Part shown: positions 7,088 to 9,716 of the stretch, piece after piece
How the letters are laid out: each line of letters opens with the position of its first letter
Position numbering within the stretch: position 1 is the stretch's first letter
IMG/VR virus record: IMGVR_UViG_3300030451_004114
Coordinates: 2,951 to 38,218 of that record
Source of the DNA: a virus
Direction: 5' to 3' (one strand)
Length of the DNA stretch: 35,268 nt
Made by a program: the position numbers and the translations under genes
The notes under the pieces: model-generated
Seen by the model: the letters and a program-made list of their open reading frames with translations, nothing else
Database searches by the model: none
Told to the model about the DNA's origin: nothing

Positions 7088-7116
7088 TTGACTATATAGT
7101 GTGGGTATGCTAACAT
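7088..7116 (+). promoter_or_regulatory. Sigma70-type promoter candidate with embedded hairpin
   Basis: TTGACT (7088-7093) and TAACAT (7111-7116) are 17 bases apart. A perfect 6-bp hairpin, GGTATG-CTAA-CATACC, covers 7104-7119 and includes the -10 region. The expected start near 7122 is 1-2 bases before the CGTTCATCC aptamer-like strand at 7124, so the transcript would begin with that element. Confidence 0.5.
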
Positions 7117-7123
7117 ACCTTTA

Positions 7124-7357
7124 CGTTCATCCAAATGCATAGTCTAGCACTACTGGTATTTCTATTCGCTGAACATGATGCAACCCATTGGGAAATGTCA
7201 TGTGATGACTGGAACCAGGCAAGGTATGAGATTCTTAGCGATAAGAACCACACACCTGATGCCAAGGAGTATCTTATAGATTACTTCTATACCAAAGTAC
7301 CAGATCCCGATTGCAGACCATGGAGCATTGGACGCAAGTAAGCCGACTCGGAACGGG
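7124..7357 (+). promoter_or_regulatory. Split glutamine-aptamer-like element enclosing a 68-codon gene
   Basis: The 5' strand CGTTCATCC (7124-7132) is identical to the 5' strand of the compact aptamer at 7360. The 3' core GGACGCAAGTAAGCC followed by GACTCGGAACGGG (7330-7357) matches that of the compact copy (7377-7404), with two gaps of 2 bases and a few changes. CGTTC (7124-7128) can pair with GAACG (7351-7355), and TCC (7130-7132) with GGA (7330-7332), exactly as in the compact copy. The hairpin loop would then contain the whole ORF 7135-7341. The sequence match is observed; folding and ligand binding are inferred. Confidence 0.45.
7135..7341 (+). CDS. 68-aa protein encoded inside the split aptamer
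   Basis: Unrecognised. The N-terminus MHSLALLVFLFAEHDA is hydrophobic and could be a short signal or anchor. The rest (MSCDDWNQARYEILSDKNHT, then DYFYTKVPDPDCRPW) has two cysteines placed as if for a disulfide and looks like a folded, possibly exported domain. There is no Shine-Dalgarno: the 11 bases before the ATG are CGTTCATCC plus AA, the aptamer-like strand. The TAA stop at 7339-7341 lies inside the 3' aptamer core (GCAAGTAAGCC). Translation and aptamer folding should therefore exclude each other. Confidence 0.65.
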   Translation: MHSLALLVFLFAEHDATHWEMSCDDWNQARYEILSDKNHTPDAKEYLIDYFYTKVPDPDCRPWSIGRK

Positions 7358-7404
7358 TACGTTCATCCTCGCAAGAGGACGCAAAAGCCGACTGAAGGAA
7401 CGGA
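7358..7404 (+). promoter_or_regulatory. Glutamine riboswitch-like aptamer (Downstream-peptide/glnA type)
   Basis: CGTTC (7360-7364) pairs with GAACG (7398-7402) to form P1. TCCTC (7366-7370) pairs with GAGGA (7375-7379) around a GCAA tetraloop to form P2. The conserved-looking CGCAAAAGCCGACTGAAGG links them. This layout, the GAAGGAACG end and the position upstream of a tiny cyanobacterial-type peptide gene match what is known of the Downstream-peptide/glnA RNA class, whose members bind L-glutamine in cyanobacteria and cyanophages. A further hairpin (AAAGT 7409-7413 with ACTTT 7420-7424) abuts the Shine-Dalgarno AGGAGA at 7425-7430. Confidence 0.68.
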
Positions 7405-7436
7405 TGTAAAAGTCCAACTACTTTAGGAGAAACCAA

Positions 7437-7562
7437 ATGGCACAAGTCACATACCGTGGTATCAAATATGATACTAATAGGGACAAAGCAAAGCAGACTA
7501 ACAAGGTCGATCTATCTTACCGTGGTGTAAGACAAGAAAAAGAACTTACAAGTCTTAAGTGA
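7437..7562 (+). CDS. Small DUF4278-type peptide downstream of the aptamer
   Basis: The 41 residues contain two copies of a TYRG motif: VTYRGIKYDT near the N-terminus and LSYRGVRQEK near the C-terminus. This is the pattern of the cyanobacterial DUF4278 family of tiny proteins, often encoded behind glutamine aptamers. AGGAGA lies 6 bases before the ATG. Function is unknown; a nitrogen-status-linked regulator is a plausible inference because small glutamine-controlled proteins in cyanobacteria can modulate glutamine synthetase. The stop overlaps the next GTG start. Confidence 0.75.
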   Translation: MAQVTYRGIKYDTNRDKAKQTNKVDLSYRGVRQEKELTSLK

Positions 7563-7876: not shown

Positions 7877-8029
7877 ATGGACGAAAACAAATGGTTAATT
7901 AAAAACATCAAAGAGGCACTCAAACAACCTTTCAATTATAATATTGAGGAAATGGAGTATCTCAAGGAACAACTGCGAGAAGCAGAAGAACGACAAAAAA
8001 ACGCAACTAGAGGTAAAGGATTCGGATGA
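7877..8029 (+). CDS. Hypothetical 50-aa helical protein
   Basis: Starts MDENKWLIKNIKEALKQP and ends with a charged helix (EYLKEQLREAEERQKN) and a short glycine tail. It overlaps the thyX start by ATGA at 8026-8029, so it is likely coupled to thyX. No motif is recognised and no membrane segment is present. Confidence 0.6.
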   Translation: MDENKWLIKNIKEALKQPFNYNIEEMEYLKEQLREAEERQKNATRGKGFG

Positions 8030-8685
8030 GTAATGTTAAACTAATCTCTGTTTCTAAAGGAGCAGGTGAACTTGAGGGTAAAGATGCCCAAGAAGTTATC
8101 ACCTATTGTGCTCGTGTAAGTAACCCAAGCAATCAAACTAAGTTTGATACTTCTGCAGGTCTTTTGAAGTATTGTATTAATCACAAACATTGGAGTATCT
8201 TTGAGCAAGCAGATATGACTGTGGAAATCAATACCACTCGTGGTCTTGCTGCTCAGGTGCTACGTCACCGTTCATTTACATATCAAGAGTTTTCACAAAG
8301 ATATGCTGATACGAGTAATTTGGGAGAAATTAAAACTCCACAACTTCGTAGACAGGATACCAAGAATCGTCAGAACTCTACTGATGATCTTGATGAATTT
8401 ACAAAACAGAAACTAGAAGTACAAATGAAAACTTTGTTTTCTTCTGCTGAGTCACTATATGAACAGATGCTTGAATTAGGTGTCGCAAAAGAGAGTGCCC
8501 GTTTTGTATTACCATTGGCAACTCCTACCAGACTCTATATGAAAGGTTCTGTTAGATCGTGGATTCATTATATTGATCTTCGTTCTGCACATGGTACTCA
8601 GAAAGAGCACATGCAGATTGCGGAAGAAGTCAGAGTAATATTCAAGGAACAATTCCCTGATATTGCAACCGCCCTAGAGTGGTGA
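8026..8685 (+). CDS. thyX: Flavin-dependent thymidylate synthase
   Basis: ThyX makes dTMP from dUMP using 5,10-methylene-tetrahydrofolate as carbon donor and NADPH through FAD. The 219 residues are a normal length. The family signature RHR-x7-S is present as R80-H-R82 through S90 in RHRSFTYQEFSQRY. Other conserved stretches are HKHWSIFEQADMTVEI and the C-terminal SVRSWIHYIDLRSAHGTQKE. It is a known cyanophage gene. Its stop codon overlaps the late promoter GATAAATA of the next gene. The substrate methylene-tetrahydrofolate is the product of the glycine cleavage pathway, to which the gcvP gene at the start of the window belongs. Confidence 0.96.
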   Translation: MSNVKLISVSKGAGELEGKDAQEVITYCARVSNPSNQTKFDTSAGLLKYCINHKHWSIFEQADMTVEINTTRGLAAQVLRHRSFTYQEFSQRYADTSNLGEIKTPQLRRQDTKNRQNSTDDLDEFTKQKLEVQMKTLFSSAESLYEQMLELGVAKESARFVLPLATPTRLYMKGSVRSWIHYIDLRSAHGTQKEHMQIAEEVRVIFKEQFPDIATALEW

Positions 8686-8966: not shown

Positions 8967-9716
8967 ATGCCCAGAAAAAAAGATTCTCCGATCGGAGTAG
9001 GAATGACGGCTAAACAGATGAAGCGTAAGAAACCAATTAATTCTGATTTCTTACTTGATGTAAAACCTCTTACAGAAAATCAAGAAAAACTCTTTAATGA
9101 CTATAAGCAAGGTAAAAACATCTTTGCATATGGTGCAGCAGGTACAGGAAAAACCTTTATTGTCCTGTATAATGCACTAAAAGAAGTGTTAGATCAAAGA
9201 ACACCATATGAAAAAATTTATATTGTTCGTTCTTTAGTTTCTACTCGTGAAATTGGTTTTTTACCAGGAGATCACGAAGATAAATCTGCTCTTTATCAGA
9301 TTCCTTATAAGAATATGGTAAAGTACATGTTTGAAATGCCATCAGACGCAGATTTTGAAATGTTGTATGGTAATCTTAAAGCACAGGCAACTATTTCATT
9401 CTGGTCTACTAGTTTCATCCGTGGTACAACATTTGATAATTCAATTTTGTTAATTGATGAATGCCAAAACTTGAATTTTCACGAACTTGATAGTATAATC
9501 ACTCGTACTGGTGAAAATACCAAAATTATGTTTTGCGGTGACGCATCACAATCTGACTTGACTAAAACTTACGAAAGAAACGGTATTCTTGACTTTATTA
9601 AAATCATCCGTAACATGGAAGATGAGTTTGGAATCACTGAGTTTACGGTAAATGATATTGTCAGATCAGGTTTAGTCAAAAAATACATCGCTACTAAACT
9701 TGCCCTAAATATTTAA
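8967..9716 (+). CDS. phoH: PhoH-family P-loop ATPase
   Basis: The 249-residue protein carries Walker A GAAGTGKT (residues 56-63) and Walker B LLIDECQN (161-168), followed by the PhoH-typical MFCGDASQSDLT sensor-like segment. PhoH proteins are cytosolic ATPases with proposed RNA-related or phosphate-stress roles; they are widespread in cyanophages, but their phage function is not settled. The N-terminus is Lys-rich and may bind nucleic acid. The gene lies 4 bases after the upstream stop, and its last codons contain a late-promoter-like CCTAAATA for the exonuclease gene. Confidence 0.95.
   Translation: MPRKKDSPIGVGMTAKQMKRKKPINSDFLLDVKPLTENQEKLFNDYKQGKNIFAYGAAGTGKTFIVLYNALKEVLDQRTPYEKIYIVRSLVSTREIGFLPGDHEDKSALYQIPYKNMVKYMFEMPSDADFEMLYGNLKAQATISFWSTSFIRGTTFDNSILLIDECQNLNFHELDSIITRTGENTKIMFCGDASQSDLTKTYERNGILDFIKIIRNMEDEFGITEFTVNDIVRSGLVKKYIATKLALNI
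9704..9711 (+). promoter_or_regulatory. Late-promoter-like CCTAAATA
   Basis: It matches the NCTAAATA variant also seen before two giant structural genes and lies 12 bases before the exonuclease ATG, inside the end of phoH. The match is imperfect relative to NATAAATA. Confidence 0.35.

Follow-up and report, generated by a model that had tools for sequence, protein, structure and literature searches.

Whether a protein-coding gene can lie inside the loop of a metabolite-sensing RNA is the question raised by a locus in a 35,268-nucleotide stretch of viral DNA (the window), which sits in a virus record of 41,995 bases (IMGVR_UViG_3300030451_004114). The region has partial matches in 157 phage records, mostly of Synechococcus and Prochlorococcus phages, none covering more than 80% of the query. 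Here TACGTTCATCC is present twice, at 7122-7132 and 7358-7368, and exact copies of ACGTTCATCC in the window are found only at the same two sites. GGACGCAAGTAAGCC begins at 7330 and GGAACGG occupies 7350-7356; the 27-base core 7330-7356 is the sole match in the window at up to three mismatches, with none in 100 shuffles. Between the halves lies an ORF (ORF1, 7135-7341) whose UAA stop (7339-7341) falls within the aptamer core and whose ATG has no Shine-Dalgarno sequence upstream. The repeat, the core, the ORF coordinates, the missing Shine-Dalgarno and the stop inside the core had all been given in a preliminary description of this DNA, and all hold on re-examination of the window.

The ORF1 product matches phrog_6471 (1.2e-25), and a Pfam search of it returned no domain. 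Median pN/pS is ~0.25 among 69 same-length ORFs, the window included, and 0.24 without the RNA-constrained ends; a spurious-ORF reading was dropped on this evidence of purifying selection. The 7135-7341 interval is confirmed as a genuine 68-codon gene between conserved halves of a glutamine-I aptamer.

Architecture of the proposed interlocked RNA

The RNA at 7124-7403 is probably a single interlocked, domain-swapped double glutamine-I aptamer, with P2 loops that serve as gene slots and whose genes would be regulated in the opposite direction to the gene downstream. Its parts in the window, which belongs to the combination class with an ORF in the first loop and a hairpin in the second (ORF/hairpin), are as follows.

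7124-7128, + strand: 5' strand of outer P1, CGUUC, partner 7398-7402 (long-range-pair topology in 394 of 394 pairs among the matches listed; RNAalifold on 38 relatives)
7130-7134, + strand: 5' strand of P2a, UCCAA, abutting the ATG (covariation across ORFs; pairs in the window)
7135-7341, + strand: 68-codon ORF in the P2a loop (phrog_6471; stop UAA in J23a/P3)
7328-7332, + strand: 3' strand of P2a, UUGGA, partner 7130-7134 (covariation; pairs in the window)
7333-7340, + strand: J23a, CGCAAGUA, with pocket G7334, long-range C7335 (to G7403) and AGUA at 7337-7340 (long-range pair, 394 of 394 among the matches listed)
7341-7348, + strand: 5' strand of P3, AGCCGACU, partner 7386-7393, six of eight standard pairs plus two A.C (inter-unit pairing across relatives)
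7351-7364, + strand: inner P1 hairpin, GAACG-GGUA-CGUUC (pair probability 0.88-0.90; spacer 3-6 nt)
7366-7379, + strand: P2b hairpin, UCCUC-GCAA-GAGGA, the short-loop version (sequence; Rfam; RNAalifold)
7380-7385, + strand: J23b, CGCAAA, with G7381 and C7382 of the inner pocket (long-range-pair analysis)
7386-7393, + strand: 3' strand of P3, AGCCGACU (inter-unit covariation)
7394-7397, + strand: J31b, GAAG, its GAA opposite the unit-1 AGUA (sequence; probable E-loop)
7398-7403, + strand: 3' strand of outer P1, GAACG, plus long-range partner G7403 (long-range-pair analysis)

The outer half would comprise P1 (7124-7128 with 7398-7402), P2a, J23a, P3 and J31b, and the inner half would sit within the P3 loop, with GAACG-loop-CGUUC as inner P1 followed by P2b and J23b, so that P3 would be common to both halves. 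The inner long-range pair joins C7382 to G7356. The UCC/GGA pairing of P2a is retained in the window and lengthened to UCCAA/UUGGA (7130-7134 with 7328-7332). Unit-1 AGUA (7337-7340) and the GAA of J31b form what we take to be the E-loop. Glutamine-I has a named E-loop (PMC6698751, available part), and the base roles proposed for the J23a pocket were assigned by analogy with the same source.

This arrangement revises the preliminary description, in which a split aptamer at 7122-7357 stood apart from an independent compact one; P3 and the pocket pair cross between the units. The P1 proposed there, CGTTC/GAACG, does join complementary strands (7124-7128 and 7351-7355), to which comparative evidence assigns the partners 7398-7402 and 7360-7364, respectively. 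Pairing of the core with a nearer strand, named there as an adverse outcome, is partly what was found, with GAACG at 7351-7355 pairing with the adjacent CGUUC at 7360-7364 at a probability of ~0.9. The free minimum-energy fold of the window RNA instead contains a register-shifted helix (UUUACGUUC with GGAUGUAAA), with probabilities of 0.01 for outer P1 and 0.00 for P3.

Occurrence among relatives

A scan with a 16-base core found at least 120 loci. At nearly all of those listed, the core is preceded by a short hairpin or an ORF end and followed, a few bases on, by another strand of the CGTTCATC type and then by a 3' core that differs slightly from the first. Most locus searches used patterns containing parts of the motif, and the parsers demanded CGTTCA and GGAACG and dropped rows that did not fit; the first parse gave 122 pairs from 127 loci plus the window, duplicates were removed before later counts, and the survey left out Prochlorococcus genomes. 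Among the matches listed, 351 distinct pairs were parsed, with loops longer than 90 bases scored as ORFs: 147 hairpin/ORF, 88 ORF/ORF, 86 hairpin/hairpin and 30 ORF/hairpin. Once 14 of the 351 had been set aside as independent tandems, 337 interlocked pairs remained, and the inner P1 spacer is 3-6 nt in all of these. ORF/ORF pairs occur in the complete genomes of the phage isolates P-RSM4, P-HM1, MED4-213 and P-SSM4, and a hairpin/hairpin pair in that of S-CREM1. One locus (L029, 6503-6830) has three units, an orphan hairpin unit 1 and then a complete ORF/hairpin interlocked pair.

A protein-only search, of which the best 80 of 386 ORF1 relatives were used, approaches the association from the gene. 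The 5' half is found in 77 of these 80; two of the other three start less than 30 bases from a contig end, and the third matches only from residue 13 onward. For the 3' half, 73 agree with the pattern; in each of them the next 5' strand comes after it, and in 72 the unit-2 core does too. The remaining seven comprise two that are truncated, four with AAGUAGG for AAGUAAG, and one (L553) with ORF1 in a unit-2 type loop. An ORF that persists without the RNA was considered and dropped; no relative that keeps the gene and lacks the halves, an outcome the preliminary description had set against its own proposal, was seen among the checkable ones of the best 80.

Evidence for pairing between the units

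The Rfam glutamine-I consensus holds an AAGUA-type J23 and a GAAG in one aptamer. Here these parts are divided, as unit 1 has a J23 with AAGUA and no GAAG, and unit 2 has GAAG or AAAG and no GUA. The strand after AAGUA in unit 1 is complementary to the strand before GAAG in unit 2. Six kinds of 5-bp P3 helix occur (AGUCG/CGACU, AAUCG/CGAUU, AUUCG/CGAAU, AAUCU/AGAUU, AGUCA/UGACU and AGUCU/AGACU), and all five positions are paired in 14 of the 15 types of this class; the longer and commonest class pairs AGCCGAC(U, A or G) with (A, U or C)GCCGACU, with two A.C mismatches in eight. When 56 P3 types, 51 of them inspected individually, were re-dealt, pairing was above every one of 1000 shuffles at positions 1 and 4 and narrowly so at position 7 (100, 88 and 78% paired against shuffle maxima of 95, 80 and 77%), and positions 0, 2, 3, 5 and 6 were not above the shuffles.

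The whole fold was assessed in a MAFFT alignment of 38 of the 71 hairpin/hairpin pairs, picked for their short loops and to cover a variety of P3 types. In this alignment 94.5% of the pairs of the interlocked structure are standard, with 94 cells changed on both sides against 25.2 in shuffles and a covariation of 0.255 against 0.090 shuffled, and none of 500 shuffles matched the observed pairing, double-change count or covariation; the number of pair types was not above shuffles (372 of 500). P3 alone is 81% paired, with double-sided changes in five of its eight pairs. RNAalifold, supplied with no structure, recovered outer P1, the inner hairpin and both P2 helices, with P3 absent, and for all 71 hairpin/hairpin pairs among the matches listed the interlocked fold has a lower energy than the separate units. 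The inner hairpin, required by the parser, is invariant in 38 of 38. P1 yields no covariation because it is invariant and because the parsers and most search patterns required it; a core scan without P1 in its pattern nonetheless found GGAACG followed by CGTTC in 118 of 120 loci listed, the rest being a chance match and a contig end. Of the covariation that the preliminary description had looked to in relatives, that in P2 is present and that in P1 is not.

The strongest discrimination between interlocked and separate units comes from the long-range pocket pair. In glutamine-II the conserved pair C19:G41 joins the third base of a J23-like strand to the base after GAACG, and glutamine-I carries an equivalent pair (PMC6698751, available part); single-unit or independent aptamers among the matches listed have it as G-C in 30 and G-U in 2. 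Among the distinct pairs in the matches listed, the outer pair, which joins J23 of unit 1 to the base that follows GAACG in unit 2, forms in 394 of 394 (C-G 300, G-C 94), compared with 297 of 394 under a separate-unit topology. The inner pair, between unit-2 J23 and the base after unit-1 GAACG, forms in 382 of 394 (372 C-G, 9 G-C and 1 G-U, with 12 failing), compared with 291 of 394. In the same set, 289 C-C-G-G and 2 G-G-C-C rows fit both topologies alike; 97 rows discriminate for the outer pair and 91 for the inner one, and every one of them is interlocked. By class, all 71 hairpin/hairpin pairs among the matches listed keep the outer pair, as do 74 of 74, 146 of 146 and 103 of 103 ORF-bearing pairs, and the inner pair is kept, in the same order, in 64 of 71, 74 of 74, 142 of 146 and 102 of 103. 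Comparison of these states, made with no tree, suggests at least three changes of the long-range pair (J23a G-C; C-G-C-G; G-G-C-C); related loci enter the pair counts, and the events are not independent. Two glutamine binding sites per interlocked RNA are plausible because each half keeps the bases that contact glutamine in solved glutamine riboswitches.

Genes in the P2 loops

Each P2 loop holds either a short hairpin or a small ORF, and all four combinations are found. The proposal that the ORF occupies the P2 loop of a glutamine aptamer is borne out by retention of P2 (TCC/GGA) and its covariation across the ORFs of relatives. In ORF-bearing unit 2 (n=142, matches listed), positions 2-4 of P2 are paired in 99, 96 and 89%, against shuffle maxima of 91, 70 and 65%; in ORF-bearing unit 1 (n=91, matches listed), position 2 is paired in 100% against 97% and position 3 in 75% against 54%, and positions 4 and 5 are not above the shuffles. 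Pairing at positions 3 and 4 drops when the partner strand is slid, and a one-base slide keeps position 2 at 100%. A change from UCC/GGA to UCU/AGA occurs in both units, and individual helices reach into the start codon, as in L080 (UCUUAUG/CAUAAGA) and L068 (UCCUAUG/CAUAGGA). P2 is just 3 bp in 39 of 175 distinct unit-1 ORF loops among the matches listed.

With the start codon taken as the first ATG within 14 bases of P2, the AUG is in the P2 helix or follows it by no more than 1 nt in 149 of 175 unit-1 and 240 of 243 unit-2 ORF loops among the matches listed; two further unit-2 loops have no such ATG. A Shine-Dalgarno-like site precedes none of 418 loop ORFs in that set. Unit-1 ORFs stop with UAA in J23 in 108 of 175 cases and unit-2 ORFs with UGA or UAA at P3/J31 in 234 of 243, and most of the remaining stops listed are shortly upstream of J23. 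The last codons of the ORFs, encoding GRK and DAKAD, double as aptamer core, placing sensing and coding in the same nucleotides. A single aptamer with an ORF in P2 was not convincingly found among the matches listed, which include one doubtful case, L291. An ORF1-family gene stands in a unit-2 type loop at L553, an arrangement indicating that genes can change slot.

Loop-encoded proteins

The encoded proteins are 60-69 (ORF1) and 49-67 (ORF2) residues long. Both have a short hydrophobic start, with two conserved cysteines in ten of each aligned, and their sequences look like those of exported proteins. ORF1 has conserved His, Trp and Cys residues, and across 56 distinct sequences no position of its final three codons varies. 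An AlphaFold model of ORF1 is helical, with a mean pLDDT of 83 and 61-66 for the first 20 residues; a PDB fold search with this model gave no match at E<=0.001. Six ORF2 sequences match phrog_504, and neither this family nor phrog_6471 has an annotated function. A second, unrelated-looking family of unit-1-loop ORFs (MTKALLLLAW...) occurs at L008, L013, L025, L028 and L045; the one member searched has no PHROG match.

Alternative explanations

On the reading published for tandem glutamine riboswitches, which is also the picture of the preliminary description, the locus would hold two independent aptamers, each complete with P1, P2 and P3, and the ORF would split the first. This reading accords with the CGUUC start, GAACG end and aptamer-like spacing of each unit, with the score of unit 2 alone (36.7 bits) and single-unit Rfam matches in six loci, and with the existence of tandems that have a local P3 in each unit. 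Such tandems, with a local P3 in both units, were seen at L395, L424, L439, L447, L449, L476 and L477, of which L395, L439, L447 and L449 are from SAR86 and L424 from Porticoccaceae, and in viral sequences at L322, L323, L356, L358 and L375. For the loci at issue, however, the long-range pair does not form within unit 1 in 97 of 394 pairs, or within unit 2 in 103, among the matches listed, the 5-bp class strands of neither unit can form a local P3 on inspection, GAAG is missing from unit 1 and GUA from unit 2, and the separate fold has the higher energy in all 71 hairpin/hairpin pairs among the matches listed; independent tandems are a very improbable account. A fold in which each unit keeps a separate P1 and P3 is an inter-unit kissing duplex is compatible with the P3 covariation taken alone, P1 being invariant. 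It is highly unlikely, since the crossed long-range pairs, the RNAalifold consensus, a spacer never shorter than 3 nt in 337 pairs and the energies (both among the matches listed) fit the interlocked form.

Other alternatives concern what the elements do. As DNA cassettes for the exchange of small genes, with RNA folding a by-product, the repeats would account for all four hairpin/ORF combinations and the second unit-1-loop ORF family, which indicate that the slot is modular; P2 and P3 covary, which recombination sites do not need, and the two sides of the crossed pocket pair change in concert, leaving this explanation scarcely credible on its own, although cassette exchange may occur besides RNA function. 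It is also conceivable, if unlikely, that the same RNA is regulated by the act of translation, as with a leader peptide, and that the protein is unimportant or the ORF constitutive and free of glutamine control. Most stops lie inside J23 or at P3/J31, and translation must therefore open the aptamer; on the other side, purifying selection on ORF1 (pN/pS ~0.24) and its conserved His, Trp and Cys imply that the product matters. The interlocked aptamer with gene-bearing loops is the reading followed below.

Promoter, downstream gene and proposed regulation

Three further features frame the RNA.

7088-7116, + strand: sigma70-like promoter, TTGACT-N17-TAACAT (7088-7093 and 7111-7116), by eye; overlaps a late-promoter-like TATATA and an inverted repeat
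7425-7429, + strand: Shine-Dalgarno sequence of the downstream gene, AGGAG (sequence)
7437-7562, + strand: downstream gene, DUF4278, 41 aa (Pfam PF14105, 4.9e-06)

The promoter-like sequence ends just before the 5' strand, where the preliminary description had put it. Of 391 pairs among the matches listed, 338 carry a TATATA/TAAATA-like element upstream and 194 have TTGAC-N16-18-T....T; neither count has a shuffle control. An inverted repeat (GGTATG/CATACC, 7104-7109 and 7114-7119) immediately precedes unit 1; in relatives its arms vary yet stay complementary, often with a -10 or late-promoter-like box in or before it. Perfect arms of at least 5 occur in 220 of 308 distinct upstream sequences among the matches listed, against 33 of 308 when base-shuffled, and the repeat may act as an operator or form a hairpin at the 5' end of the RNA. 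Downstream, a DUF4278-like protein with an early Y(R/N)G motif is encoded in 373 of 378 pairs with enough sequence among the matches listed, and a Shine-Dalgarno-like site precedes the downstream gene in 366 of 378.

In cyanobacteria, glutamine binding to either glutamine riboswitch type raises DUF4278 gene expression (PMC6316151, available part); the accessible part of PMC8092223, on PirA, makes no mention of phages or DUF4278. The anatomy of the locus suggests that the loop ORF and the downstream gene would be under opposite control. At high glutamine the aptamer would fold, P2 would shut on the ORF start codon, the folded aptamer would block ribosome entry and the ORF would be silent, with the DUF4278 gene on, as with glutamine switches in cyanobacteria. 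At low glutamine the aptamer would open and the ORF become translatable, and ribosomes reaching the stop inside the core would hold it open, so that one sensor would have two outputs in opposite directions. With genes placed within sensor loops, reading of the gene and folding of the sensor should exclude each other. Modelled access to the downstream Shine-Dalgarno site is mixed: in one class of 28 the bound model raises it for 11 and reduces it for 10, and in the other class of 38 for 20 and 3, respectively.

More tentatively, the RNA may act as a cooperative two-pocket glutamine sensor, its pockets interlocked via the shared helix and its stem-loops plug-in sites for genes, with internal genes off and the downstream gene on when glutamine is bound, and translation locking the structure open in a bistable manner; closure by glutamine of each P2 on an AUG lacking a Shine-Dalgarno would be one element of this possibility. 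Such a gene-hosting interlocked riboswitch would bear on how phages read host nitrogen state, and its presence in complete cyanophage genomes (P-RSM4, P-HM1, P-SSM4) makes it testable.

Relation to known RNAs

The RNA resembles glutamine-I (glnA RNA, RF01739) in P1 CGUUC/GAACG, P2, a J23 of CG(G/C)AAGUA, P3, GAAG and the long-range pair, and in its position upstream of a DUF4278 gene. It differs in being split over two tandem units with one common P3, in having a second pocket-like half inside P3, and in a P2 loop that may be a protein gene. P1, which the parser required, and the pocket bases including the long-range pair are present in 394 of 394 pairs among the matches listed, and a P2 hairpin with a variable loop shows covarying pairs in both short-loop and ORF-loop versions; a local P3 within one unit is replaced by an inter-unit P3, which makes the RNA a variant of the glutamine-I riboswitch and not a plain member. 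The long-range pair counts likewise do not agree with a tandem doublet of two complete, separately folding aptamers.

Rfam searches treat the pair mostly as parts. With RF01739, unit 2 of the window alone (the compact aptamer, 7358-7406) scores 36.7 bits against a gathering score of 35, and the window pair is not matched as one aptamer, presumably because of the 200-nt insert. The L070 pair aligns as one 96-nt aptamer (40.2 bits), the only joint alignment in ten sources scanned, the other nine giving single units or nothing; single-unit matches are at L003, L010, L029, L107, L115 and L127. With RF01704 (Downstream-peptide) the window reaches 25.8 bits against a threshold of 33, with three non-standard pairs marked, and L070 unit 1 passes at 35.9 bits. 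The models of the two families named in the preliminary description recognize unit 2 as glnA, and neither a Downstream-peptide RNA nor a joint match is recovered from the window.

Glutamine-II (RF01704) has pocket bases, C1, G2, G18, C19 and G41, with equivalents in this RNA (PMC6698751, available part), and its marine phage form shares CGCA and GAACGG; glutamine-II is a pseudoknot, in contrast to the nested three-way junctions here. Guanidine-II also creates two ligand sites, by a loop-loop contact (PMC6698751, available part), and differs in having no common P3 and no genes in its loops.

Glutamine riboswitches have already been reported in phages, in S-CREM1 (PMC9964418, available part) and in Melnitz and others (PMC9004378, available part). 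The S-CREM1 report gives a 99-nt glnA match of 44.0 bits (PMC9964418, available part), which our Rfam scan did not reproduce, finding only unit 2 at 33.5 bits, below threshold. Tandem glnA RNAs were noted in 2010 (PMC2864571, available part), and a 2022 count gave 157 doublets and 4 triplets, described as pseudo-cooperative (PMC9481103, available part). These published independent tandems are alike in having two units in tandem; the bacterial tandems among the matches listed have a local P3 per unit, whereas the interlocked RNA has none. Some published doublets may be of the interlocked type, and since tandem aptamers can apparently domain-swap into one structure, published tandem glutamine riboswitches need re-examination.

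Interplay between an upstream ORF and a riboswitch is described for B12 (PMC11260477, available part). A riboswitch with genes in its aptamer would merge sensing and coding. In the literature searched, largely apart from subscription papers and preprints, no description of interlocked glutamine aptamers or of ORFs in aptamer loops was found, which is not proof that there is none. Protein-coding sequence inside a folded RNA is familiar from group I and II introns and from tmRNA; to our knowledge, none of these is a metabolite sensor of this kind or has its start codon at an aptamer stem.

Several minor observations concern neighboring sequence. At freshwater-looking loci with a J23 of CGG (such as L269, L285 and L332), CUCUUUAAC follows GAACG and is complementary, by eye, to the downstream AAGGAG; the two likely form a Shine-Dalgarno hairpin. 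A snR55 snoRNA match at 9450-9558 of the window was taken as chance (26.9 against a threshold of 50). A ThyX-type thymidylate synthase (Thy1, 3.4e-45) is encoded at 8026-8685 of the window, and a manA RNA lies close to the glutamine RNA at L124 (P-SSM4, 1179-1364, 184 bits) and L070 (1299-1496, 176 bits).
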